From contig CM055108.1 of NCBI GenBank assembly GCA_029204225.1, positions 23,470,749 to 23,534,748 on the forward strand: DNA of 64,000 bases, written 5' to 3'. The notes below the pieces were generated by a model. It was not told the DNA's origin. It was given only the letters and a program-made list of their open reading frames with translations, and ran no database searches. Made by a program: the position numbers and the translations under genes. This document shows positions 5,533-62,600 of the stretch, piece after piece (position 1 is the first letter of the stretch; every line of letters starts with the position of its first letter). The DNA comes from Diphasiastrum complanatum. Taxonomy: Eukaryota; Streptophyta; Lycopodiopsida; Lycopodiales; Lycopodiaceae.

Positions 5533-6085
5533 CAGGCCAGAAAGTACAATGGCTAAAAAAAATCAGCAACCCCAAGCCCTCAAGCAATCCATCCCACTCA
5601 TTCAAAATATAAGCCTACTAGTATGACAATGGACTACAATCAACCAACCAATTCTCACCATGAAATCACTCTCACCCATCAATCCTCTCAACAAAAGCAA
5701 GTAAACATCCTCTCCAAGTAATTTGAAGCACTCAACTATGAACTCACACTAGTAATGAGGTCCACGCAATCAACACAAACAACCACAATCTCTCAACTTC
5801 TCAATATAAGCAAGCAAGCATAGTAAGTAACATCACTCCCAAACCACAAGACAACTACAACTCTCAACTCTCAAACATACCCACTCCTAAAATCCTCACT
5901 CACAAAAGTATTAACATTTAAAATTACTAACTCTTCACATCATCTGATTATTATCCAACTATCATTGAGCTATTTCAAGCAACTCACAATCCTTCTAACC
6001 AACCCACCAACATTGAACTGCTTAAACAATTTAGAACCAAAAGTTCATCGTGAACATTTATATTGTGTTGGATTTGAAGAATGAA
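5533..6085. other. low-complexity intergenic stretch
   Basis: The stretch is rich in CTCTCAA/CAACT-type words and has no long open frame or recognised element. Confidence 0.4.
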
Positions 6086-6560
6086 ATGAAATCCTCAATA
6101 TAGGGGCATTATGAGAAAGTGAGCAACATATTATCACTTTTCAAATCAAGCACACACAATTTGATCATGAGACAATAGTGATTGATGTGGATCTAGAGTT
6201 GTCGATCTGAAGTTAATCTTATTACTTCCAAGTTCTATGAAAAATGGGGAGTTTCGACAGCTAAAACCTATAAATTTTGCAATAAAGTTGGCATCATTCA
6301 ATCAAGTGTCAAACCAAAAGGTGTCGTAGAAGATGTACCGATAAAACTGACAAGTGGTTAATTTTTTATTACCTTTTTGGTAATGGATTTACCGAATGCA
6401 CCATCAACCTATCTGATTTTGTTGGGCCATCCTTGGTTATGAGTCTCTCAAGTGATTCATAATTGGGGAATCTGCAAGATTATCTTTGAAAATTAGGAGC
6501 AAGAAGTCAAACTTGATCCAATTACATGGCCAGTCAAACAATTCCATAGAAAGCTGATGA
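6086..6560 (+). mobile_element. Ty3/gypsy protease-region remnant
   Basis: Conceptual reading of the plus strand gives scattered pieces typical of the retropepsin-like region of plant gypsy polyproteins, including VEDVPIKL, FLVMDLPNAPSTYLILLGHPWL-like wording and VIHNWGICKI. It is heavily decayed, with many breaks and no LTR attached. No reverse transcriptase follows, so it is an isolated old scrap. Confidence 0.5.
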
Positions 6561-7100
6561 TGATTTTTATAGATCACACAATAGATCATGAAGACAAAGC
6601 ATTGGAAATACATTACGATTCTAACAATGTAAATTAAGAATAGGCATTGGAAACAATCGATTGCACAACATGATATATGCGTCACTTGATTTCTTGTCTA
6701 TTTTTTTGATATTTTGTTTTACCATGTAAATGTGATGCTAATAAATGGATTCAATGTTAGGATGCTATGATTGGCACATGATATCATTGACTTTGAAAGG
6801 TCGATAATACTTAGCTTGTCATATAGCTTAATATTGCCCTTCTTTTTCATAGCCCTTGACTTCTTTAGGAAACTTAAACTTGCCTTTATGAGCATGGGCA
6901 TTGTAGAGCAAGTAAAGGCCACCCTTTGCCAAGTCCTTCAAGTATAAATTGCCATTGGATCATACTTTTTTCCCTTTTTTTTTCAACCATCGTTATTTGT
7001 ATGGACAAGAATCTCGTCTCAGGGAGTTTGGAGAGTTTCTCACACTATTTTTTAGTGAAATATCTTCATCTAGTCCATGCTCGACAAGGATCATGGCCTC
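6561..7100. other. intergenic, nothing firm
   Basis: No recognised gene. Weak gypsy-like wording can be read on the minus strand between 6719 and 6922, but not enough to call. Confidence 0.3.
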
Positions 7101-7105
7101 TTGAC
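7101..7105 (+). repeat. target-site duplication TTGAC, left copy
   Basis: TTGAC stands directly before the TGTTGGA start of the first LTR of the array, and the same five bases stand directly after the last LTR at 11650-11654. Five bases is the usual duplication length for copia elements. Confidence 0.7.
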
Positions 7106-7971
7106 TGTTGGAGTTCGATTCTCAGCCTCAAATCCATTCAGTAATGAGCATCTTGAAAGTTGTATAAAATCCATAAAAAGAAGGCTCGAATTTCTGAGTA
7201 GAAGATCAATAATTTTAAGATCAAATTTTTTTTATTCAATATCAAGCTTGGCAAAAAAAAGATTTTTGGACCCTGGATTGGATCGGATCGAGACAGAAAT
7301 TATCCAGGCGTCTTCGACCCTGGAGATCCGGTCTAATTTATCTAGGCGTGTTCGACTCCGGATCAGATTGGGTCTAATTTTTTCGACCCTAGAAAAATCC
7401 AACCTTGTGCATATTTTTGATCCAGTATAAAAATTCGACCCTTTGTATATTTTTCGACCTAGTGTAAAAATCCAACCCAGTGTAATTTTCTGACCCAGTG
7501 TAAAATTCTGACCCTTTGTATATTTTTGATACATTGTAAATTTCGATACTGTTGGTCAGAAAATCCGACCCAACGACCTCGCATTGACGTCCGCCTACTT
7601 TGTACATGCATTTACAACAATGAGACGGTTGTAATTAATGCAACAAATCAGTTATAGATATTTTTGTATATCAATCAACTGTGAATCAAAGTTATTTTAG
7701 TTTTTTTTACTCAATCCTTATCAACATATTTCCGTTGGCAACGTTATCATGCTCAATCAGCTAAAGTTTTTTTTTTTCAAGCCATTGTACTCCTTTGTTG
7801 ATATAAATTAGAGTGTCATTTTTCTGTCCCACTACTGTCATTGTTCATTGCACATTTGTCTGATATTTCTTTTGAATTATTCTGTTGTTGTCTGTTGTGC
7901 TTCCGATCCTACACACTGCCCACTCACTCAGTCTTCTGTTGATAATCTCACGATTTCTCTAATTTTCAATA
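7106..7971 (+). repeat. array LTR1
   Basis: This 866-bp copy starts TGTTGGAG and ends just before a primer-binding site (TGGTATCAAAGC at 7972). Its middle (7390-7560) is a tandem run of about 18-22-bp units of the form GACCCAGTGTAAAATTC and GACCCTTTGTATATTTTT. It is longer than LTR2, mostly because of extra copy-number or spacer sequence in the first 300 bp. Confidence 0.75.
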
Positions 7972-18908: not shown

Positions 18909-21900
18909 ATTAAATCCAAATGTTCTGCAGGTGGCTATATACTTCGCGTTCTTGGGGATGTACACACAGTGGCTTATGTTTCCAGCGATTTTGGCTATCT
19001 TCTTCTCTTTCATAAACCTGGGGTCTGTATGAATCCTTGCATGATCATGCCATTTACACCTATAGCGATTGTACTTATCATCTGCAAATCCTTAACGTCT
19101 TTGATAAGTAACCGATCGAATGCTTTCATCTGGAACATGCAGAAAATTTGAACCAGTGGTGCCTCTCATCTTTTCCTTTTTGGTAGTTGTTTGGGCTGTC
19201 CTTCTACTACAGTTTTGGAAACGAAAAAATGCCGCCATATTGACAAGGTACGGATTTGGGGTCTTCACAAATGTTATCTTTAGCTCTTTTTGTCCTTCTG
19301 AGTGCAGTCCTTTAAAACTTTACTGCCTTTATCTTAAAAGTGATTGCAAGATAAAGTATGGGTAAGAAATATCTAGGACCTTACTTTTAGCTACCAATTT
19401 CAACCGCATCGGGCATGTTAACTTCGCTTTAAGGCAACTAAGGTACAGGACCCAGATAAAAAGAAAGTTCGAACTAGCTAAACTTAGAGCTTTGAGCCAT
19501 GTTGTGGCTTTCCTGGAAAGAAGAACTCACAAAGAAAGAAAAATTGGCTATTGCAACAGTTTCTAGGTGAAGTTGGCCTTTGCATGATCTTGCCATGATG
19601 GATTTAGTAATGGGAAGAGTTGCTCAAAACACTTCATTTGATTGTTTAGCCCGAACTGTAAGAGAACACGATATTTGAGCGAGGAAGTACCAGATGCATT
19701 TTCATTTCAAATGTGTTCTGACCTGGAAAATCAAATCTCAAAACTAATGCTATACCTGAGACCGCATTGACAATCTCATGCTCGTGCTTTTAGGAAATGT
19801 TCAGAGTTGTGTTATTGGTGTTGAAATAAATGCCTATTTTGCCCCTTAAGGCTTGTATACTTGTAACTTGTAAGTTGTGCATAAGACATGGGGGTAAAAC
19901 ATTTATGTACATAGTACACCCCACTTGTGCTAATTAAGCAAGTAAATCAAGTAGGTTAAGGACCCATGTGGGTTCTAGAGCTAGAATTAGCAAGACACCA
20001 CCTCTATATATAACATGCTATATGTAGCCCAAACTTTGGAGGGGTTTCCACGCCCTACTACACTTTGAATATTTATTCATGTTGTGTGAGCTTTGAAGTC
20101 CTCTCTCTCTTGCTTTTGTGTTCTACTCCATAGCTGGTTTTCTGAAGCTTTCATAGTGTGCTTACTATGCTGTTATGATACTCCATAGCTAGGCCTTGGA
20201 ATTTGACATGGTATCAGAGCAGGTTATGTTGCCTGTGGTGTGGTGAAAGCTTGGACCTGTTTTTGATCAGATTCCTGCCATTCCTGGAGAGCAGCTTACC
20301 TTTGAGGAGGGAGCACTTTTTGTAGGGGCATCTGATCTCTGTGCTATCTGCATGGTTGGAGTACTGTTGGCAAGGGGAGTACAGGGAGCCAAAAAGTTTC
20401 TAATTTGAGACAAAATTTTTTGAGTCTTTTTGGACAGCCAGGACTGTAGGAGGGCGCTTTCTACAGTGGGGACTTCAGTGAAAGTTCTGAGTGGATCTTG
20501 GACAAGGGCTAGGACAGCCATACAGGGGGATAGTTTCAAATCCAGAAGCTGAGGGTTATTGAGCAAGTGGCTGCATACCCTAGTTGGGTGACAACCCCAG
20601 TTTGCCTTTTGTGTTTTATTTCTATCCAGCTATGTCTAGTCTTGCGGAGAGCATGCTGAGTGAAGCCAGCCGGCTTGATGGCACTAACTTTAGCATATGG
20701 AAATTCAAGATCAAGAACATTCTTGAAGACAAAGAATGTTGGAAGCTTGTGACAGGTGAGGAGCCTGTTCCAACATCTGAACTTGAACTTAAGGACTATA
20801 TCAAGAGAGGGGAAAAGGCACACATAATCATCAACATGTCAGTGAGGGATAATGTGATTCCTCTAATCAGGTCAGCCAAAGGGCCTGTGGATGCATGGCA
20901 CATTCTTTGTGCATTGTATGAGACAGCAAGTACAACCAGGTTTCTCTACTTGAAGAAAAAGTTGTATACTCTCAGAATGGAGACAGGGGAGACAGTTACT
21001 GATCATCTTACTAAGATTCAGGATATTGGATATCAGCTTTCTGTACTTGGAGAGTCTATTGCTGACAAAGACTTGGTGCCAATAGTTCTAAATAGCTTGT
21101 CATATGCTTATCAGAACTTTGTGATGATGATGTCAGTGAGAGAGAAGATCCCTACCTATGAAGAAGTCTATGGTCTCTTGTTACAGGAGGAGATGAGGAG
21201 AGTTAATCTCTCCAAGAGGGAAGATTTCCAAGAGCATGCCTTTGCTTCTAAGAAGAAGCAAAATCCAGCTAAGGATAAGAAGAAAGGTAAAGGCAAGAAC
21301 AAAGGAACACCACAAACACTTGAGCAAGGAATGGAGAACTTGCAGATGTCAGAAGCACAACCCTCCTCGAATACTTCTTCCACACCTCGAAGGAAGGGGA
21401 ATTGCAATTACTGTGGTAAATATGGACACTTTGCTTTTGAGTGCAGGAAGAAGCTTGCAGACCAAAAGAAGGGCACAAAGAAGCAAGGAGGAAATGTTGT
21501 TGAGAGTGTTGCAAGAGAGGAGCAGAGTGACATAAGGCAAGCTGAGTTATTCTCTGTTGCATTGGCTTCACAAGCTACAACAGGTGGTTGGTACATTGAC
21601 TCAGGTGCTTCAAAGCACATGACCTCTCATAGGGATTGGTTTGATATTTTTGTGGGGATTAGTGATGGACAAGAGGTGTGTCTAGGTGACAACTCAACAC
21701 ACAAGGTCAAGGGAAAGGGCACAGTACCTGTAAGGCTTTCATCAGGAGAAGTCAAAGTCATTAAGAATGTCTTATATGTACCAGGACTTGCTAAAAATCT
21801 TCTTTCAGTAGGAGCTATCACTCAACAAAATATGAAAGTAGAATTTGATGCTACTTCTTGTCTTGTGTTGGACTTGAGTGATAATATGAAGGTTGTGGCC

Positions 21901-24900
21901 AAAGGATTGCAGGAAGATAATCTATACAGGTTATACACTTCTATCCCTAGTCAGCATGCTTATACAGCAAAAGTAGGGGATGTGGATAGGTTGTGGCATG
22001 AGAGGTATGGACATCTTGGCTACCAAAGCATGCAGGTGTTGACCCAGCATCATATGGTGGAGGGGCTTCCAGTTGTTAAGCCAAGCTCTTCAGTTTGCGA
22101 GGCTTGCGCTATGGGAAAACAGCAAAGACATAAGTTTCCCAAGGAAAGCACACCAGGGCAGCAGGCATACTTGACTTGATACATTTAGATTTGTGGGGGC
22201 CAACCCAAACAAAATCTGCAGGGGGGGCATATTACTTTATGACCTTTATTGATGACTTCTCACGCAAGATTTGGATTTATTTCTTGAAGTTAAAATCTGA
22301 AGCATTCAAGTACTTCCTGCATTTCAAAGCTTTGGTAGAAGAACATTCAGGAAAGAAGATAAAGATGCTCAGGTCAGACGGTGGTGGAGAGTTCATTAAG
22401 ACAGAATTTGTGGAATTCTGCAAGGCCAATGGGATCAAAAGGCAGCTTACAGCTCCTCATACCCCTCAGCAAAACGGCGTAGCAGAGAGAAAGAACCAAA
22501 CTATTGTGGAGTGTGCAAGGTGCATGCTCAAGGCAAAGGGGTTGCCCAACTCTTTTTGGGGCGAGGCAATGCACACAACAGTGTTTCTGTTGAATAGAAG
22601 TCCAACAATAGCTGTGGAAGGCAAGACTTTAGAAGAGGCATTTAGCGGCATTAAGCCCAAGGTAGGCGCTTTGCGAGTGTTTGGTTGTACAGCCTATGCC
22701 CATATTCCCAAGGATAACAGGAAGAAGCTGGATGCAAAATCAGCAAAGAGTATTTTCTTGGGATACAGTGAAGAAAGCAAAGCTTACAGACTTTACGATC
22801 TTACTAGCAAGAAAAGGATCATAAGTCGAGATGTGATCTTTGAAGAAGATCAAACGCCTCCTATAGAGGAACTTGAGATGGAGGATGGTACAAGTGAATT
22901 TGTGCCAATACTTGATGACCCACATCCATATATTGGGGAGCCTCAGGATGATCATATGAGTGATCAAGAGGAAGAATCCGAGGAGGCTAGGAAGCGGAAG
23001 GAAAGGGGCAAATCAGTTGAGTCCTATTCACCGTCTTCATCACCAACTGCAAGGAAGAAGTTTCCCAAGTGGTATTGGCAAACTGTGCAGGATGGTTTGA
23101 TATTGGATGAGGGAGAGAGCAGCAATTCAGGGGCTAGGAGGTCTCAAAGGCAAGCCCAGCAGCATGAACACCAGGAGACAAACTATGCACTTATGACTAC
23201 TATTTTGGATTCACAAGATCCACATACATTCGTTGAGGCAGTAGATGAGAAGGTATGGCAACATGCTATGCAAGAGGAGTACGACTCCATTCTCAAGAAT
23301 GATACATGGGATTTGGTGAAGTTACCAAAAGGGAAGCGTCCTATTGGCTGTAAGTGGGTCTACAGGACCAAATACAAATCTGATGGGAGCATCGAAAAGC
23401 ATAAGGCAAGGCTGGTTGCTAAAGGCTATGCACAGAAGGAGGGCTTGGACTATGATGAGACGTTTGCACCGGTAGCTAAGATGACGTCTATCAGGTTGGT
23501 TTTAGCATTGGCTGCATTTTTTGGTTGGGAGGTCCATCAAATGGACGTGAAGAGTGCTTTTCTTAATGGACAGTTGGCTGAAGAAGTCTACATGGAACAG
23601 CCACAAGGTTTTGAGGCTAAGGGCAAGGAAAGTATAGTATGCAGGCTTAAGAAGGCCTTATATGGTTTGAAGCAGGCACCCAGGGCTTGGTATAGTCGTA
23701 TTGACGACTATTTTGCCAAGGAGCAATGCATAAAGAGTCAGTCGGATTGCAACCTGTTCGTGAAAAAGAAAGATGGGAACATTGTTTTGATAGTTCTCTA
23801 TGTGGATGACTTGGTCATCACGGGTAACGATGGGCAGCTTATTGAAAAGGTGAAGGCTCATTTATCAAATGAGTTTGAGATGAAGGATTTGGGCTTAATC
23901 CACTATTGTCTTGGTTTGGAGGTTTGGAAAAAGGAAAACTGTGTGTTTATTTCCCAAGCCAACTATGCATGTGAAGTCTTGAACAGGTTCAACATGCAGG
24001 ATTGCAAACCCGTTTCCACGCCCATTGATACCAGCAGTAAGCCATCCAGAGATGATGGCACTCCTTTTGTGGACGAGACTCTTTGGGTAGCCTGATTTAT
24101 CTTACCACTACGAGACCAGACATTTCCTATGTGGTTGGTGTAGCAAGCCAGTTCATGAGTTCTCCAACTGAAGCACATTGGAAAGCAGCCAAGAGGGTTT
24201 TGAGGTATGTCAAAGGGACAACCTGCTATGGGATTGAGTACACAGATGACGGAAAGCTTCAGCTTGGAGGGTTTACTGATTCGGATTGGGCAGGTGATAG
24301 GGATGATCGAAAGTCGACCACAGGTTACACTTTTAATCTTGGTTCAGGGGCCATTTCTTGGTGTAGCAAGAAACAGCCCATAGTTACCTTATCATCGACA
24401 GAGGCTGAGTACAAGGCATCGGCAAAAGCTACCTGCGAGGCAATATGGCTCAGGAGACTTCTTGGAAAGGTGCAGATTCCATAGGATGGTCCTACTATTC
24501 TTCAGTGTGACAGCCAGAGTTGCATCCAGCTTGCCAAAAATCCTGTGTACCATGCTCGTACGAAGCATATTGAGGTGGATCAACCCTTTTTTACGAGAGA
24601 AGATTTAAAGTGGAGAAATTCAGCTCGAGTATTGTGATACCAACGAACAAGCAGCATATATCTTTACTAAGGCACTTAGTAGAGAAAAATTTGAAAAGTT
24701 TCGTAGCATGCTAGGTGTTGGTATGAACAAAATAGCCATTGAGGGGGGGTGTTGAAATAAATGTCTATTTTGCCCCTTAAGGCTTGTATACTTGTAACTT
24801 GTAAGTTGTGCATAAGACATGGGGGTAAAACATTTATGTACATAGTACACCCCACTTGTGCTAATTAAGCAAGTAAATCAAGTAGGTTAAGGACCCATGT

Positions 24901-40029: not shown

Positions 40030-41860
40030 CTTTCTCGCACTGATGGAGTGTTGATCTCTTGATAACCATAATCTTTCATTTCTCTCATGCATCTTGGTAT
40101 GTTGGTAGGAGATAGTGCCTTGAAAGAACTCAAATGGCCTTTATCTTCGAACTGATTTGACAAACTCTCAACTACAGCACGAGAAAAGGACTTTTGGAAG
40201 TCAATCGCCTCTTCTAAGTCATCACCCACAGCAAATCTATTGATTTCTATACCATAATACATATTTCCTTGTAGGGAATTTTGTAACCTTCGGATATAAC
40301 CATTTTCAGGTCCATAATCTGGTAAGATTGCATACCCTTTACTGTCATATGTTCCAACATTCAGATTTGTAGGAGGGTCTTCAATAAACTCGTCTTCAAT
40401 CAAAGCAATTTCATTAGAAACAATTCCTAAGATTGCTCCAACTTCCACATAGTCTCGTTGAAATATCAAACTCAAAATTGACAACTTATTAAGTATGTCC
40501 ACTAGAAAATGTAGAACGTATATACACTTGAAGTCGCATAACCTTTTTAGAAGCTTTTTGGTTGCAGCAGCCTGAACTGCCTTCTTCGACTTACTTGTAG
40601 ATGCCAAGGCTGCTTCCAAATCGTCTTCAACATCTTGGGCATCCTCGTCGATGAGAACAACATCTTTTTGCGAACTTGATTTTTTTTTTTGACATTTTGT
40701 TAAATTCAATTTTTATAGCATGAATCAGGTTGCAGAACATCACATATGCGTTTTATCGCATTGTGACGACTCAACCATCTTGTGGCATTTAATCCTATTC
40801 AACTTCAATATATCATTGGCCAGTTCTTCTTGTAACCACCGCAAAAGAGATTGCCTTTTGCAACTATTGGCAAAAAAAGAAACTGTTGCATTAACTAGTG
40901 AATCAATAAACTTGGAATACGACAATTTGGAGGCTGAACCTGAACACGCTAAATTGCACCTTATAGCGATGCAATGTATACCTGATAGAAAAGGGCATGA
41001 ATTTTTTAGCCTCATCACAACTCCCGTGTTCGACCCTATCATGACACTTGCTCCATCAGATCCAAACCCTACAAACTTTCTAATGTCTAGGTTCGACTCA
41101 CTAAAAACAGCCATGATTGCATCATAAATTGATTCGGCATTCTCATTTTCTAAAGAAATAAGACAAAAATAAGAAGTTACAAGATTGAAGTTCTCAATGT
41201 AAGACAAATACATAATCAAGGACTTCTTGTCAGATATGTCCGTGGACTCATCCACCATTAATCCAAAGAAAGGACTTTGCTTTACTTTTTTTCAGAATAC
41301 TTTCTTGTAATGATTCGCCAATGTACTTTATAAATTCAGCATAGGCCATATCATGTTGATAGAGACTTTTTGTCATTATTTTCAATCCAAGGGATCGTAA
41401 CAAACATAGTTCAGATTGGAACTTGGTGTAGGGAAGATCCTCTTTTGCAATAAAGTATGCCACCTTAAACAAGGCCCACAACGCCCCTTCTTTTCTGTCG
41501 CGATTAGTAGCATTCGCTTCTTGTATTGCCTCTTTCTCAGCTTCAGTATGATCTCTATATATATCTCTATGGACTTTGGACCTACCATGATCCAACCATG
41601 CAGTAGCACGAATGTTAGTGCTCCCCAAAGTTCCAAATACATTTTTGTAACAGTTTGGCTGTTGCTTGCATACTTTACAATACACCCTTCCTAATTATTT
41701 GTTGAACTCTAGCCACGGGTAATCGATGATCCATTGATCTTGCCACATGTTACAAGCTTCTGCAATTCTAAGAGCTTCGAGATTCTTTTGGAGGTTGGCT
41801 GATTGAATCTTTTCTTGTTCTGCATCAACTTTTTCCTCCTCGTTGCACCCATCACAACCA
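40023..41860 (-). pseudogene. hAT-type transposase remnant (TTF zinc finger, DUF4371-like)
   Basis: A transposase-like protein of the group that also gave rise to ZNF862/KIAA1586-type host proteins. From about 41860 down the minus strand encodes WIIDYPWLEF, a TTF-type zinc finger (YCKVCKQQPN...ATAWLDHGRSKVHRDI), then MVDESTDISDKKSLIMYLSY, the hAT core GFGSDGASVMIGSNTGVVMR with CPFLSGIHCIAIRCNLA, then LNRI...LSRHNAIKRICDVLQP. A further stretch runs to 40023 with acidic and linker sequence. It is a dead copy: an in-frame stop lies near 41693 and frame changes near 41280 and 40790. The C-terminal hATC dimerisation block is missing, cut off where the tandem repeat begins. No terminal inverted repeats were found. 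Confidence 0.85.
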
Positions 41861-52592: not shown

Positions 52593-54269
52593 CTGAAAAC
52601 AACTCGTGTTAAAAGATGTATATTCTAATGTTGATATTTTAACCTTTTTGAAAATTTTGAAATTAAGTCGTTTCCTACAGAAATAAAATATATATATTTG
52701 CAATATTAACAATCTATTTCATTTGTAAAAATCATAAAATACTTGAAAATAAATATTTTTAAAAATGTACAAAATATATGAAATGTAATTTTCTAAATAA
52801 CTGCTAATAGAATATTAAGTTTCATATGCATATTAAGATTTTAGAATACTTTAAAACCTCTTAATTTAAAATGCATAAGATTTTACAAATTGCATTATCT
52901 TCCTTAAGAAAATTTTCGAGAGTTTCATTTGCAAGAGCGATGTCCCAGTTATTGTGGATACTATCATTTTGCAAGAGAAGTGTCTCAAATACATTGTTGT
53001 TTTTGTAGTCTCTTTATAAGAATGAAGAAAATAAAAAATTTGATGTTTTCCATCTACGTTCATCATCTTCAAAATTTACAATATTAAAAAATTTATAACG
53101 TTCAATACAAATGCCCAAAATAGAAATAATATATATACATTTTTAATTCCAACAAATTTAGATACAAAAGAGATAATGACATAAATCTCAAATAGATATC
53201 AAGAACTAGATAACGTGGTGTTTTTTATTATAATAAAAATGAGGAATATATGTTATGCAAATGTTCAAAAGTCATTAAGCTATAGTAGGGTCCTGCTTTT
53301 CAGTAGGCTCAATACGTCGACAAAGGAACAATAGAGTCTTTGTCGTCAATAAATTTCCCTACCTTTCCTACCTCATTTGGCAAAACTAAAGGAGATTTCA
53401 TCCGCGTGTTACTAAATTCTACTAGTTCGTTATCGACCTATGTTGCAACACCATGCTTACCTTTTTTAATAGCACATGTGTTGGTCATACCACTATTGCT
53501 AAAAAGATATAATACCCAATCAATAAGGTGTGAAAATTCTCAATTAAATTCTTTACTAATTGTTGTGGCTTTTGATACAAACAAGCCACAAAATCGCTCA
53601 TTGGGTTTAAAAGTTTCTTTGTCACAACTGAGTATTCAAGAGATTGCCAAAACTTGTTTGGCCTACTATGTTGTAATGTAGCATGAAGCGTTCCGTGTAC
53701 TTAAATGGATATTCATCGTTCAAAGAATGTTTTATTTGAAAACAATAAGGAATGTCAACTATGCAAAGCATATAAGACCTTTTTTTTTTTTCAAAAAATT
53801 TGGCAATTCCTTATAGTTTTTTCAATCAATGGTATAAAATAACAGCTGATCTTCAACATTTTTTTGGAATATAGGTCTCTATTTAATCCTCTTTGGCCAC
53901 TATTTCACCACATGCTACTCTTTCCTACTCCTTTTTCAGCCTTTGCTTTTAAGATATGTCTTTAAAATTTTTCAAGCAAAACACTATTCTTTCTATCCTC
54001 ATAACTCTGAAACAAAAAAAGCTACACTCAGCATGAAAAAAAAAAAAAAAAGTCATCGAAAATCTTAATACACAAGTCCCAAATTTACTAGATTTTATGC
54101 TCAACATAGAGAGAACAACTTATCATGTCTCTAAACAAAATTAAAAATGGGCTAAGGGCCTCATTCTTCGAGCTCAGAGGATAAAGCCTCTGACATTCTT
54201 CAAAATCTTTGCAATTGAGCCCAACAATTCACGAGAAGCAGCAGTTGCGTGAGTATCTTTACCATTCTA

Positions 54270-56091
54270 TTATAGGATCTCTTGTGTACACATGATCTAT
54301 ACCATGCCAGACATTGCTTTTGTAGTTAGCTCTCTCAGTCAGTTTATGACTAATCCTGGTGTAACACATTGGAAGGCTCTCATCAGAGTCATGAGATATC
54401 TTCGAGCTACTATGGACTTTTGCATTTGTTATGGAGCAGTCGGCAATGACAAACTCAATTTCCTCAGTGCTTACACAGATGCGAGCTGGGCAGGAGATGT
54501 AGACACTCGTATATCTACTTTCGGATTTACATTCTTCCTCAACAATGATCCAATTTCCTGGAATAGTCGCAAACAATCTTCGACAGCTCTATCTTCCACT
54601 GAATCAGAGTATATCGCAGCCTCTCAAGCTACAAATGAAGCAATTTGATTGAGAAACGTACTTTCAAATATCGGTCTGAATCAATATGCTTCGACGACAT
54701 TATTTTGTGATAATCAAAGTGCCAACGCTTTATCAGCCAACCCTAGATTCCATTTCAGAAGTAAGCAAAGTTTTGAAGTATCATTTCGTCAGAAGCAAAG
54801 TTCTCAACGAAGAGGTCTGATTGCAGTACTGTAGAATGCAAGATATGACAGCTGATATTTTTACCAAAGTATTAAGTTTGGATACACACAGAAGATTATG
54901 TGTAGAACTAGTTTGAAGGTCAAGGCATTCAAGGATTCAGATTAAGGGGGAGTGTTGGATTATTCTCCTTCTTACCAATCGACTAATCGATTTTAATCTT
55001 CATCCATTGTTTTATCCGGTTCTGCGGTTTTTCTCCTTACATTCTGCAGTTTTACAAATGTTTTTACACAATCTACATAATTACACAGAGTTTCACCACA
55101 GTGTCACATTTCATGTTCTCTCACTTCAGCTTTCTCACCTGCCAAGAAATACACGGAGTTTTACCTTGGTGCCGCTTCAGTTTTTCATTTTTGGCAAAGT
55201 TGTCGCCTGTCAGGAATCTCGTGTAAAAATGCAGTGTCGCTTTTCGTATTTTTTCGTCTGTCGGGATTCGCAAGCAAATATGCAGAGTCGCATTTTTAAC
55301 TTGACAAAATGTCGCACTTTTTGCTTTCTCCAAAGAGCCTCAAAAGTTAAGGAAATGACTCTGGCAAAGTGTAGGAAAACCCTAAATCAGTTTTTAAGGC
55401 ACTGTCATGTTTTTCGCAAAATCTTGATACTGTTGCCTTTTGCGATAGTGTTGCCTGTGGCTGTTTTAGTTCATTTTTGTAGAAGTGACAATTTGGTTCA
55501 TTTATGCAGACAGAACATTTACGACCAATTTCACCGCTTATCAACAATCAATGACAAGGAACCGGATGGATGCCAGCGGATACCAACCAACTGGCAATCA
55601 CAATTGATGACCTAATTTCTTGGTATAAATAGCCGATCATATTCATACAGTTTCAATGTAAGCAGTTTAATATCAGCAAGTATTGCAAGTTAGCTCTCCA
55701 TCAAGATTTTAAGCTTGAACTCTCCTGAGCATTCTAGCTCAGTTTTAGAGTTATTAGAGTTGCTATTGCGCTATTGCTTATCAGCATAGCTACTTGTTAT
55801 CAGACTTTTTCTCAGTTACTCAGAGACAGCTTAGAGTGTGCGGTTTCTATCCGCTAATGTTTTGCGCTCATTGGCATCTGATTTTGTTTTTCTGAATCAG
55901 TGTCAGAATGCATGCATCTCTATATTTACTTCATGTTTGACTACGTAATCACTTAGTATCTAGCGATTTCAAAGTTTGTTGCTAAAGATGAATGTGATTC
56001 CCATCACTACTGCTTTGTTCAATTTTTGATAGGCGTAGTCATGCACTAAAGTAGAAAGTTTCTACTACGATTATCTAACCTATTTTCGACA
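54270..56091 (+). mobile_element. Ty1/copia remnant: RNase H and 3' LTR
   Basis: Plus-strand RT-tail and RNase H sequence (TMPDIAFVVSSLSQFM, FLSAYTDASWAGDVDTR, SSTESEYIAASQATNEA, DNQSAN) spans about 54290-54890. A polypurine tract AAGGGGGAG (54944-54952) and a 3' LTR (54953-56091) follow. Everything upstream of the end of RT is missing. It has a few breaks. The LTR starts TGTTGGAT and ends TTTTCGACA, the same termini as the array at 7106-11649. Confidence 0.85.
54953..56091 (+). repeat. copia 3' LTR, 1139 bp
   Basis: The left edge is fixed by the polypurine tract; the right edge is set at TTTTCGACA by analogy with the related LTRs. A TATA box (GGTATAAATAGCC, near 55622) fits a promoter two-thirds along. 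The first half contains loose repeats of GCAG(T/A)GTCGC(T/A)TTT. Confidence 0.7.
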
Positions 56092-58460
56092 GATAGTTCC
56101 CTCCATCAAGTCTTTATGTACATCAGACAACATATGATTGAAGCTGTCGTTGAACTTTCCGTTAACCCTACTACCAAACTTCTTGCACACCTCGGTAATG
56201 CCGAAAATATACGAGAAATAGAACACCTTCTTAAAAAACCCAGCTTCTCTATCTTACAAGATAAATACTTCCAAAATACAAGTAGAAAAACAGGGTCCTT
56301 CAATTTGAATAATCCAAGTTCAGTCATTTCAGACAGTGGCAACAAGAGGAGGAAATACTTTCCTAACAAAGGCAATGAGGGGCAAAGTAGTCGCGGGAAA
56401 GGTGATCTTCATATCAAAAAACTTAATTTTTACCGTGATTGATCCTAGTGCATGAAGATATTGAAGATATTAGAGTATTGGAAGTCAATATAGTTGGTAG
56501 GCGAAGACTTATTGTTAGAAGAGATAAAGGAAAGATGTTTTTACATTTACATTATTACAATAGGTGCTTTGAGAGTATAAACATTAAGCAACTTTATTAT
56601 GAGACTTTACTCCAAGTTTTTGGTTACATTGATGAGATCTTTGAGCATATTGTGTTCGGTTAGACCTTTTTTCCACATTTGAAGCGTGAATGGTATAAGC
56701 CTTTTCAGGTTTTTTGCGAGTTCGACATTGATAACATTCCACCTTGTACTTGCTTGAATTTTAAACGTTTTAAAGAGTTTATTGATGAAAATTTTGGGCA
56801 TGTTATCTCTATGAGCACTAAAATTGTAGACAGTAAGATTTTAAAAAACAACTTGAATAAAGAGCTCAATCATATTCCTCTACGCCAATCCAATATTAAT
56901 GAGGTCTCTTTGGAACTGTACCATGGTTGGTTTAAATTGGCTGATTTTTACCCTGTTATCAAAATATAGATCATGATAGTATTGTGGAACATGCCCATAT
57001 TTGCAAGGTTGCTGTTTTGAACTTTCTAAAGAAAAATAGATGGCTTCATGGTAAAAACACCACTAGAAAAGATTTAAAGAATGTTGGTGATGAACGTGAC
57101 TGGATCACTACTTATCTATTATTGTGAATGGCGTAGATAAGGCCCAACATAATCCTTGTTTCATGTGCATAATTTTTGTTAGAAACTTGGCGCTACAAAG
57201 ATTATCTAGTTTGGATTTTGCTCCTTTTCCAAAAAATGGTAACAATGACACTGATTATGCTATTATAATTACTAAGCATAAGTTTTCTAGTATATTGCCA
57301 GAGTACCTTTTAGGGAAAGATGAATTACCTTATCTACTTTGTACATAAGAATACCTTCAGATGGATTACGAATGCACATGACTGCTACTTTTCAAAGGTG
57401 GCCACATTTCTTTCTGGGGTTCTTGGTATTCTGTCTCCAATCCTTATGGAGGGGGCAGGCCTTAAGGCGAATTCATACCGGAGCTACCTAAATGTGGATA
57501 CCAACCTATTTTGGTAGTGCAACTCATCCACTGATTTCTATCTTAACGTGCCAAGTAAGATTACTTCTATGTGGTCTACTGACATCTCCAAATGTTATGA
57601 AAACACCCCTCTTAGTGGCTCTGATGGACTTAAGACTATTATACGAAAATTGAGACTGTATGCTTTCAAATTCCACAAAGATGATTTTCTTGTCTATAAT
57701 GGAAACCTGGACATGAGGAATGTAAATGGAGATGGGTAAATAAACCTACTGAAAAATGGACTCATATGGACAAACTACTACTTTGCCAATGGAATGATTT
57801 ATTGATTGACCACTGCATTGTGAGACTTGGAAACAAAGCTTGGAGACAAGTGTGTGGTATACCTATGGGCTTTGCTTGTTTCCCTAGTTGGTGTAACTGG
57901 TATCTGTCATTTTATGAATTGCATTTTATGAAAAGACTTGCTAGGCTTGGAGAAATTGAATACTTATGGGCATTCAAAAATACTTTTCGATATATAGATG
58001 ACACGTGTTTTGTAAACAACCCGGTTGCACTTTTATCTTTGGATAAAGAACTACCTCGTACCCTCGAGAATGCCAAATGGATTTATCCTCTGGAATACTT
58101 GACCATAAAAAATGACGAGTCTAATGACAATACGATAAACTTCTTGAATATTACTACTACCTTTGATTCTGAGTCGGGTAATTTTCATATGAAAAAGTTC
58201 GATAAAAGAAAGGAACTACCTTTTCACTTGTTACAGTTCATGCATTTAGCTTCAAATAGACCTACCATGAACTGTTATAAGGTTATCATTGCACAGAATA
58301 TCGCTGTTATGTATTGTTGTAGTGATCAAAATGCTTTTATTAATGAGGTCAATGACATTGCTATGGCATTTCAAAGGAATGGCTTCATGAAAGAAAGATT
58401 GTAATGTATCGTGAACAAGATATTTTTACACAACATGTTCCCTGGTTTGATGTTTACATT
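56092..58460 (+). mobile_element. Penelope-like reverse transcriptase element remnant
   Basis: Plus-strand coding pieces, in family order: an N-terminal region with LNHIPLRQSNINEV and a Cys-rich PPCTCLNFKRFKEF; a VDKAQHNPCFMC block where Penelope-like RTs have DKG; PYLLCT...HTFRWITNAHDC; the RT motif A region SMWSTDISKCYENTPLSG; GIPMGFACFPSWCNWYLSFY; the catalytic box FRYIDDTCFVNN; WIYPLEYLTIK, INFLNITTTF, KFDKRKELPF; and a C-terminal thumb. The FRYIDD, IYPxELxIK, xLD/N and YDKRDDF order matches RTs known from animals and some plants. No GIY-YIG endonuclease follows before the (CT)n tract at 58565. It is broken, with several breaks. The 5' side abuts a copia LTR, which may have removed its front. 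Confidence 0.7.
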
Positions 58461-58487
58461 ACCAAAAAATGTGGAGTTTCTCTTGGT

Positions 58488-58525
58488 GGGCAGTTAGCAC
58501 TCCGTCTCAAGGGTGCTAACTGCCC
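58488..58525 (+). other. perfect 13-bp hairpin behind the RT frame
   Basis: GGGCAGTTAGCAC (58488-58500) and GTGCTAACTGCCC (58513-58525) pair perfectly around a 12-base loop. It lies just after the last RT-coding segment and before the (CT)n tract, so it may belong to the 3' end of the Penelope-like element. Confidence 0.9.
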
Positions 58526-58562: not shown

Positions 58563-58700
<138 letters not shown>

Positions 58701-58990
58701 GCACTTTACGATATGGGTATTATACTTTATTTGCTTTCCGAAATGACATGAAATGTATTTTTATGATACTAAAACAGCTAAAAAAAGCCTTACCTTGCTG
58801 AACTTAGGAACATGGCCCAAATGGTTTTTTAAATTCCTAGTCTTTTGGTGGGAAACTTGATTTTCATTGAAAGGCCTGGATCAGTGCACAAGATAAGGAG
58901 CTAATCTAACGGTGGGCATCTATAGACAATTGATGCACCTAGAGGTGTTGAATCCTCTATAAAAGAAAATATCGCTACAACCCTGAGGTT

Positions 58991-59729
<739 letters not shown>

Positions 59730-60518
59730 GCATTAGAGGAGTTCTAAATCCAAAAAAGACCCTTTGTAAAGATACTTTTTATATTTTTTCTCAAATTTTG
59801 CTTACACATAGACCAACCAAAACACTCAAATTTGAAATCTACGTAACATAGCTCATTAGAATTGAAAAAAAAAAAAAGTTTTGTTAATAATGCTATAATT
59901 CGGCGTCGGGGGCAGCCTACAAGCATGACATGTTATTCATAGTATGATATGCAATTATCATTAGAAATAGCATAACCTCTTAATCGTAGCTCCGATTGAG
60001 ACGAAAATTATACCATTGGAAAGCGTCGACAAGAGCTTTCCAATGGTACCCTACATGACCTACTTCTCAAATTTTGCTTACACATGGACCAACCAAAACA
60101 CTCAAATTTGAAATCTACGTAACATAGCTCATTAGAATTGAAAAAAAACAAGTACTCCATCCGCGCACAAGAGAGGTACTTGGACTTTAAAAAAAAAAAA
60201 CTTTGACCGGCCATAACTTTTGAAAGGTAGCTCAGAAGTAGGGGCCATGTAGGATACCGTTGAAAAGCTCTCGTTGAGCACTTTCCAATGGTTAATTTTT
60301 GTCTCAATCAGAGCTACAGTTAAAAAGTTATGCTATTTTCAATGAACTACAAACGATAATGTACATAGAATGGTTAAGCATTGAAAATAGTGCGGGCAGA
60401 AATGAAAAAGAACTTGGGCATAAAATGAATTTATTTTGGTAGTTTACATTAATAAACTTTGTCAATCTATCTGGCATTCCTTAAAGGGTCTTTTTTGGAT
60501 TCAGAAATCCTCTAATGC
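59730..60518. mobile_element. foldback/MITE-like element with long inverted repeats (789 bp)
   Basis: The ends GCATTAGAGGA(G/T)TTCT(A/G)AATCC (left) and its complement (right end 60518) are inverted, continuing through AAAAAAGACCCTTT. A second inverted pair lies inside, about 59955-60070 against 60225-60345, both reading ATAGCATAAC, GTAGCTC(C/T)GATTGAGAC and CCATTGGAAAG in opposite senses. In addition a block of about 85 bp is directly repeated at 59786-59872 and 60065-60150 (TCTCAAATTTTGCTTACACA). No transposase frame and no clear target duplication. Confidence 0.75.
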
Positions 60519-62600
60519 TTGTTGTGTATACATGATACTATCACCATGTGTTGCTACGTGCAAGCTACCGCCTCATCTGACTTTTGCCTGGCTCAGTATC
60601 AACTTATCACTTCGATAAGTAAAGAAGAACATAATATATGTATGCCCATAATGACTGCTATGCAAACAATGTTATCAAATATATATTTACGAGATGTGGT
60701 ATGAAGCTTTTTTGATAGTATCCACCTATATACAGGGATAACTCAAAGTGCTATGCTAATTTCCCAGACTTGCTACTATTCGAATGCTAAAATATGAAAG
60801 GATTGATGCTTTTATGTTGTGATATGTGTATGATAGCTGAAACATTGGATCACATGTGATTACTTACGATATTATATAAAGAAATTGCACTTCTTCTAAA
60901 TTGAATCCTTTCGGTTTGGAATCAGTAGTACATAAAATAGGGATTTGCTTGAAGCTGTGGAAGATGGGTAGCTCACAAGATATTACCTCACCTCGCATTC
61001 AGGTATGAGGCTGTATAAAACTACGGTGAAAGTTAGTATCACCAAAAACCATTATACAGTTCTCTTATGTGTATGGAACTTCATGGCTTACGTGAACTGA
61101 ATGTGGCTTGAGACTAGAATTGTTATAAATGCTTACTTCCCATGCGTGCAAGTTTATATATGATTGGTTTTCTGTATAGTTCCGGTTTTTTTTTAAAAAG
61201 CAAGAGCTGAGAGGCAGCCTGTATAAGTAAGCTTTGAATATATGCTGAGATTGGTTTTGACGAGCTTGAATGGCATGGATTTGCCCAAGCTTTTAGGTGC
61301 TAGGAATCCTAAATATTTTGCATAGGATGTCCTTGGGGCTGGTATGGCACGTATTTGCCCAAGTACTCAGCACTTGGCCAAAATCATATCTCGTTTTCTT
61401 TGTGTATTAAAACACTGCTTCTTACATGTGTATTTTTATGAGTGAACTGAATACATTCTCTATGCTCTTATACTGATCAGTATGGCATCTGCCTTAATAC
61501 GGTTTCGTGAAAGGGCAGAATGTATTGCTAATTTTGAAACGCATGATTGGGAAGATTGGACGTATTGTTCGTAATTGCAATCAAGCTAATAAAGTAGTGA
61601 ATCTTGTTTCGGACATGGATGACAACTGATGCTCAGCTATGACACCTGTCTTTCTCAAGTAATTAACTTGTGCGGTTTTCTTGTGTGGGATGGTGGCAGG
61701 TGGGTGTCCTAAAACTTGTTTCGCTTTATGGTACTATGTACTTTAAGACTTTATACAGCTATATTAAAACCTGTTCAAAGACTTTGGTCTTGACTTGTCA
61801 AGAGGGACTATGTAATATCTTGTTACTCTCTCTCTCTCTCGCGTATGGTATATAAATCCAAATCTATTGAAAAAAAACAGAGGACACCATGTGCATACAA
61901 TTTTTGAATATCCACTACATTTAACGGTGTGTAATACGTCCTCTCCTTGAACCCTTAAACTCGCTAAAATCAGCAAATAATTACTCGCAAAATGCCAAGG
62001 CCCTACTAACCATTTTCTTTGACAAGTTATTTCAAGTACCAATCCGCTTCCAAATACTCAAACCGGCGGGTATGAGAAATTTCAAGAGTTGCATGGTATG
62101 TAGAACCAGCTGATATGGGTTTTTGTAGAAACCGTCCAAGGTTGAGAATGGTTGGTTCCCTTTAAGCCTTGGATTGATATTAAGAAGCAGACAAATTTGT
62201 GGGGGGAATAACCCTACCATCAATTGATCCTATAAAGCATAAGAAAGTTGAAATATTTTTACGAGCTTATAAAGGGACACGTAATCTTGCTTTCAAAACT
62301 CGGGCCATTATCAATCTTCTAACCTCTACTTTTTTGTGCACAAGAAGTGTTGGCCACACTGTTCAAATTTTATTCTTTTTATGGAATTTTTCTAACCTAC
62401 GTATGTATGATTCCTATTACTATATACTTGAATAATATTTATTGAGCACTTCTTGATAAGGGAATAAGCATCATATTTAAAACCACCAAAGAAGAAAATT
62501 TTAAATGTAAAGCGATATCTTGAATGAGATTCCTTGATAGAATAAAGACAATGCATGGAATCCTTAATACATGGGAACCGCAACTTGATACTAAGGCACA
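60519..62600. other. intergenic, nothing recognised
   Basis: No credible gene or element. Short frames have no recognisable domain; one short CT tract lies at 61826-61841. Confidence 0.4.

Follow-up and report, generated by a model that had tools for sequence, protein, structure and literature searches.

Among Penelope-like elements (PLEs), the Naiad/Chlamys clade reportedly carries an N-terminal endonuclease, a CxC motif before the reverse transcriptase (RT), pseudo-LTRs, and a bias toward microsatellites, with no hammerhead ribozyme, features attributed to a 2021 study. An insertion in the RT fingers domain is also said to mark this clade, and Chlamys is reportedly known, from the same 2021 study, from algae and spike mosses. 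In PLEs at large, a hammerhead ribozyme in the pseudo-LTR is common, not universal. The preliminary description of the locus treated here called such elements sparsely described in plants, which is fair, yet endonuclease-less PLEs have already been reported from Selaginella and conifers (PMC9033089, PMC12477314). In the rotifer Terminons, which are devoid of an endonuclease, a short repeat beside a ribozyme fold is thought to pair with telomeric overhangs, and stand-alone GIY-YIG frames occur in these elements (PMC6431247). For Poseidon of Anolis, reverse transcription by the purified protein is reported to begin at an internal position, close to where pseudo-LTR and ORF meet, and hammerhead ribozymes can be present in PLE pseudo-LTRs (PMC11167929).

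The locus lies in the 1.74-Gb genome of the lycophyte Diphasiastrum complanatum, within a stretch of 64,000 nucleotides that was analyzed as a whole (C17:23470749-23534748, hereafter the window). The element found there is probably a decayed copy of a very numerous, endonuclease-less Penelope-like family, and its parts are collected in Table 1 together with neighboring features. Its 5' border is the end of a Copia 3' LTR (56094), present in the window as a single copy, and blastn rows of 13 other copies of the family begin at window positions 56110-56128. ORF2 is interrupted by stops and frame shifts, and because the copy is broken, the RT motifs are scattered over several frames. The motifs named in the preliminary description are present and real; the 152 matches in the same genome and the excess of third-codon-position mismatches in ORF2, both detailed below, argue against chance. 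The element had been taken to end at 58525, which is too short by 3.3 kb, as a (TC)n tract and a pseudo-LTR follow up to ~61,840. The block noticed before the RT does exist, but it consists of the last part of a distinct ORF1, which reaches 56442, and the N-terminal part of ORF2 with its CxC motif. A foldback sequence within the pseudo-LTR is probably a later insertion; a clear target duplication was not seen around it by eye.

Table 1. Features of the window, in window coordinates.
Feature	Position	Strand	Remarks
Copia-like element	20584-24095		by eye; fairly well preserved, with long open frames of 531 and 653 aa
Fragment resembling a hAT/DUF4371-type transposase	40740-41291	-	presumed assignment
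Open frame of 671 aa	45835-47850		gag-like zinc knuckle recognized by eye; L081, L032, and L026 hold related DNA
Copia-like RNase H frame	54253-54648		named by eye
Copia 3' LTR	54953-56094	+	limits TGTTGG...CGACA, by eye; abuts the 5' side of the PLE copy
PLE ORF1, C-terminal remnant	56095-56442	+	ends ..LNFYRD-TGA; homology to other copies from 56110
ORF2, N-terminal part	56439-56969	+	-1 frame; in-frame stop 56661-56663
CxC motif (PPCTC), upstream of RT	56745-56753	+
ORF2 piece carrying the DKA motif	57100-57348	+	DKA at 57136-57144
RT motif A, DISKCYENTPL	57581-57613	+	same stretch present in A1 (family sequence)
RT core frame	57700-58404	+	GIPMG (57856-57870), FRYIDD (57985-58002), IYPLEYLTIK, FLNI, KFDKRKE (KFDKRK 58195-58212)
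(TC)67 tract	58565-58698	+	between ORF2 end and next unit
Second unit start (pseudo-LTR)	58699-59431	+	inner (CT)49 at 58993-59090
Foldback sequence within pseudo-LTR	59730-60518	.	789 nt; 36-nt terminal inverted repeats, 94% complementary
Remaining pseudo-LTR, up to internal CT tract	60864-61835	+
CT tract, 3' terminus of the window insertion	61826-61840	+

For the 234-aa frame at 57700-58401, 152 matches were reported in the same genome (4425 first-look candidates, 150 scored), with 53-100% identity to the window frame among the matches listed; the family is therefore very numerous. Twenty copies were fetched with 9.9 kb each, which together with the window gives 21 sequences. Two pairs of copies are near-identical (L022/L025 and L034/L035). 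Relative to L022, the RT is 85-88% identical in group A (L023, L027, L030), 65-70% in the window's own group (window, L021, L039), and 54-56% in group B (L034, L036, L037, L038). Horizontal arrival, which had been considered for the element, finds no support in anything tested, the family being diverse as well as very numerous (54-70% identity among RT groups).

In the aligned copies, the unit runs from a 5' region of ~1.6-2 kb through ORF1 and ORF2 to (CT)n, after which the 5' region appears again in many copies. Units can stand head to tail, and pseudo-LTRs arise in this way; in L024, for example, positions 260-1909 are mostly repeated within 5619-7582. Behind ORF2, 18 of 20 rows carry a CT tract of at least 11 repeats, located 34 nt further downstream in L038; the row of L040 represents another place in that locus, and the sequence breaks off earlier in the remaining two, L022 and L031. 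Directly after this tract, ATGG(G/A)CTC is found in 10 of those 18 rows.

ORF1 has no known domain. It closes with LNFY(R/H)D and a stop in 15 of the 21 sequences; as a stop was part of the search pattern, copies lacking one would be missed. ORF2 continues from ORF1 in the -1 frame and terminates soon after the RT, closing on ..VGS in several copies. At window positions 56422-56460, and at the same place in 15 of the 21 sequences, ORF1 stops at the same TGA, and the -1 frame of ORF2 is open without a clear start codon. The arrangement of this junction suggests frameshifting or reinitiation. Mismatches at codon positions 1, 2, and 3 number 1920, 1621, and 3368 in ORF2 (10468 codons), 295, 253, and 630 in ORF1b (2317 codons), and 470, 375, and 615 in ORF1a (2291 codons). 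Judged from the sequences, this pattern suggests past selection on both ORFs; the signal in ORF1a is weak, the close copies L022, L025, and L031 being without a third-position excess. The CxC motif before the RT occurs in 11 of 15 pattern-matched sequences and in one of the four B-type ones, with FxC in the other three (L034-L036) and CxS in L031. The replacement of DKG by DKA, pointed out earlier for the window, proved to be family-wide: DKA is present in 14 of 16 pattern-matched copies, the others having DKV (L032) or NKV (L029), and DKG in none of the 16. GIPMG and YIDD are kept in most pattern-matched sequences.

Profile searches identify the RT as an RT only. Pfam RVT_1 matched nine of 13 family members, weakly (best E 4.8e-6), and no other Pfam family was found, hence no RVT_2. 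General RT models gave similarly weak matches: in NCBIfam, group II RT in 7 of 11 members (best E 0.005) and Drt3a in 2 of 11, and in PHROGs, phrog_1423 in 9 of 11. Neither family profile matched the PDB. Two PDB matches of the window frame to PINK1 (E 0.26) were set aside as chance, and NUMOD4 in ORF2 (E 0.16-0.18) was dropped as below the cut-off. The TERT RNA-binding domain has a single match in the genome (C5:19212968-19213498) against a very numerous family, so host telomerase was rejected as the source of the RT; as a separate observation, this match points to an apparently ordinary TERT in the host. Outside this genome, profile A3 returned 35 pattern stretches in viral contigs and 27 in genome contigs, an animal protein used as query returned two and 25, respectively, and neither set contained a relative; patterns based on animal proteins had no match in viral contigs. 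A coral-like animal protein sequence, composed without a database record and after the window family was known, gave 1.6e-25 against profile A2 (0.026 for the best shuffle) and is treated as a lead only.

On the best reading, the family is filed as a PLE from the structure of its unit. The order of RT motifs had already been taken to favor a Penelope-like element over LINE and LTR retroelements, and this placement is supported by the tandem units and pseudo-LTRs, by the fixed internal position, close to the junction of pseudo-LTR and ORF, at which copies end, and by RVT_1 without RVT_2. A hammerhead ribozyme in the pseudo-LTR was not found, Rfam giving no match. With the endonuclease-less PLEs the family shares two ORFs and the failure to find an endonuclease. 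A telomeric location was not observed: copies lie along the contigs, all 20 that were fetched at length being at least 1 Mb from contig ends, and two listed copies being within 1 Mb of one (C9:771877 and C23:42214566, the latter 0.28 Mb from its contig end). No telomere repeats were seen by eye at the printed junctions. With a Terminon-like 3' end but no telomeric location, the family is therefore not filed as a Terminon. The idea of a LINE, or another retroelement outside the PLEs, with a CT tail is scarcely plausible. The units of L025 and L039 do resemble a tailed non-LTR element in closing after ORF2 with (TC)n and flank instead of at the internal tract, and the best NCBIfam match is to the general group II RT model. 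However, the pseudo-LTR terminates internally, upstream of ORF1, as many copies show, no endonuclease family, AP and RLE types included, was found by Pfam in the pieces scanned, and RVT_1 itself is matched weakly.

The absence of a GIY-YIG domain, first noticed in the window, extends to the family and is not a matter of one decayed copy. Pfam at E values up to 10, a range in which HMMER filters drop most matches above 0.1, found no such domain in ten ORF1 and ORF2 pieces of groups A and B. Likewise, tblastn with one host GIY-YIG protein as query gave no match in the window or in L021-L080. A C-terminal domain of the Penelope/Poseidon/Dryad type was not encountered, ORF2 ending shortly after the RT, nor was an N-terminal one of the Naiad/Chlamys type in the ORF1 and ORF2 N-terminal pieces scanned. 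The GIY-YIG model does work in the host genome: among 471 candidates, all 150 scored stretches exceed the Pfam cut-off, so that at least 150 host stretches exist, with open frames of at most 202 aa. These results bear on two alternatives. The family could be a degenerate member of the Naiad/Chlamys clade whose GIY-YIG has diverged too far for Pfam, and the CxC linker, microsatellite bias, pseudo-LTRs, and lack of a hammerhead fit the features reportedly found in that clade. This is nevertheless very doubtful, given that no GIY-YIG appeared before CxC or in the ORF1 pieces up to E 10 (with the same filter effect above 0.1), while the same model finds 150 stretches in the host.

Alternatively, an endonuclease might be supplied in trans by the short stand-alone GIY-YIG frames of the host, a proposal made conceivable by the abundance and small size of these frames and by the stand-alone GIY-YIG frames described in rotifer Terminons (PMC6431247). 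We consider it distinctly improbable: when 134 GIY-YIG places were compared with 118 RT places on the chromosomes, among the matches listed, none of the former lay within 198 kb of an RT, and one frame viewed closely has a second GIY-YIG frame within the next 571 bases and no RT, by eye, in ~2 kb downstream. A cluster near the end of C8 (C8:0.64-3.16 Mb) holds 28 of the 134 compared places as short stand-alone frames, and neighboring C8 frames (L081 2063-2416 and L082 90-500, both on the minus strand) do not look by eye like part of a retroelement.

The distinctive feature of the family is its 3' end. In a 360-nt test stretch aligned over 21 rows, 12 rows reach within 4 nt of its end; of the nine that leave the element, seven exit in the CT tract upstream of ORF1 and two elsewhere (L021, L033). 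In uncut units, this internal tract has 4-6 repeats in most cases, with nine in L049 and a broken tract in L040. A second sample comprised 20 junctions fetched among the 40 matches listed for the preceding 401 bases, out of 3644 first-look candidates. Fourteen exit in the CT tract or within ~5 nt of it, and six continue. As flanks are shared by L064/L067 and by L068/L071, the 14 tract ends represent 12 distinct flanks. At least 20 CT repeats stand directly at six of these 12. Seven of the 14 tract ends have 4.5-7.5 CT repeats only, and four of the 12 flanks (L072, L074, L075, L078) show no long CT tract at the junction; a CT target is therefore a bias and not a rule. The end in L062 runs into (AC)n, and that in L068/L071 lies 9 nt from a TC-rich tract. 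No AG tract was found within 30 nt of any of the 14 ends, whereas the window outside the element has three CT and two GA runs of at least 10 repeats, which together cover 274 of 58,244 bases. Genome-wide, exact patterns gave 160 long-tract cases (at least 10 CT repeats) against 95 uncut ones, with 0 and 0 for reversed controls; these exact-match counts are only roughly comparable, and an uncut unit grown to 10 repeats would be counted among the 160. That copies of this family tend to end inside a short CT tract is new. Among the matches listed for the Penelope literature on lycophytes and for PLEs with dinucleotide repeats, titles and the beginnings of abstracts name no such element, a weak negative, with subscription journals mostly outside the search.

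Some copies have landed in the CT tracts of others. The L069 flank resembles that of an L038 end (84%) as well as the L038 unit start (76%), the flank of that L038 end in turn resembles the L038 unit start (74%), and the L033 unit is preceded by a B-like ORF2 end (89% to L034/L035) and (TC)98; these matches together point to nesting. A further case read by eye, L061, had no BLAST support and was withdrawn. At the left side, the three 5'-complete units that border non-PLE DNA (L023, L024, L029) all start directly after (TC)33-61. At the nine left alignment limits of L021, L026, L027, L032, L033, L036, L038, L039, and L040, no CT tract was found. A simple insertion in the middle of a CT tract would leave such a tract at the left, and its absence could be explained by later damage or simply by alignment limits.

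The sequence around the internal tract is predicted to fold. In 17 full uncut stretches among 40 loci (L021-L060), the consensus comprises four helices: an 11-pair outer stem encloses three hairpins of 5, 5, and 8 pairs, and the CU tract stays unpaired; in the minimum-energy fold of L024, the tract is partly paired. Over the 29 pairs, 96.6% of 493 cells are paired and eight pairs have changed on both sides, none of 500 shuffles matching the fold on paired cells, double changes, or covariation and six of 500 doing so on pair types, figures to be read in the knowledge that related sequences inflate covariation and that the structure was derived from the same sequences. Sliding the partner by 1-3 columns as a control left 37-47% paired. 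Single folds gave z values of -4.35 (L024), -2.21 (L033), -4.44 (L028), -0.89 (L040), and -2.82 (L037). The weakest, L040, belongs to the window's own group and is the nearest of the five to the window copy; 37 of 200 shuffles were as good. The modeled RNA fold is supported at the level of the group. No Rfam family reached the gathering score in eight copies or the window, and none appeared at E up to 5 in the L024 fold region.

The same PLE might also acquire its ends at the RNA level, if a self-cleaving or processed fold cut the RNA at the CU tract, any primer were used, and long (CT)n arose by slippage. Hammerheads are possible in PLE pseudo-LTRs (PMC11167929), the fold surrounds the tract, and half of the 14 tract ends are short; slippage could indeed account for the long CT tracts at junctions. 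Against this stand the negative Rfam searches, the lack of any end entering AG, and the ends that sit in native (CT)n of other copies. RNA cleavage is worth weighing as an explanation, but unlikely.

As no endonuclease was detected and copies end in a CT repeat, the family may prime by pairing with CT-rich repeats. We assign a probability of about 0.6 to the joint reading that the window element belongs to an endonuclease-less PLE family and that this family primes by homology, its CU tract pairing with an (AG)n 3' end; the pairing and the order of events are what we infer. The RT would bind the folded RNA, leaving the CU tract free to pair with the (AG)n 3' end where a CT microsatellite is nicked or broken. 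Reverse transcription would then begin at the CU tract and run back through the upstream unit, so that homology-guided priming replaces the missing endonuclease. Tandem arrays would be built when copies insert into the (CT)n of others. A tentative extension, to which we give a low probability, is that endonuclease-free spread through the chromosome arms relies on the CU tract displayed by the fold and on (AG)n, and that the tract may be copied repeatedly in a telomerase-like manner, building (CT)n landing sites.

The joint reading bears on how endonuclease-less PLEs may integrate away from chromosome ends. The sharp 3' rule, a CU tract within an RNA fold, combined with the size of the family makes homology-guided priming directly testable. 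The family would also connect PLEs with a telomerase-like use of the template and be one source of the long CT microsatellites in this genome.

With Naiad/Chlamys, going by the features reported for that clade, the family shares CxC before the RT, pseudo-LTRs, a microsatellite bias, and the lack of a hammerhead; unlike them, it has a separate ORF1 and no GIY-YIG was found. Tandem units, pseudo-LTRs, and an internal start near the junction of pseudo-LTR and ORF are common to the Poseidon/Penelope/Dryad elements with their C-terminal GIY-YIG (PMC11167929). In Poseidon, however, the start site shares no homology with the cut DNA and the element has an endonuclease (PMC11167929), whereas the start tract of this family matches (CT)n at six of 12 distinct flanks and no endonuclease was found. 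Athena and the Terminons likewise have no endonuclease fused to the RT, two ORFs, and units of ~5-6 kb, and in Terminons, too, a folded RNA adjoins a short repeat thought to pair with the 3' end of the target (PMC6431247). Terminons dock (ACACCC)n beside a hammerhead on G-rich telomeric overhangs, whereas here a CU tract adjoins a fold without an Rfam match, in copies of which the 20 fetched at length lie at least 1 Mb from contig ends. Overall, the family looks like the Terminon case shifted to CT microsatellites away from chromosome ends.
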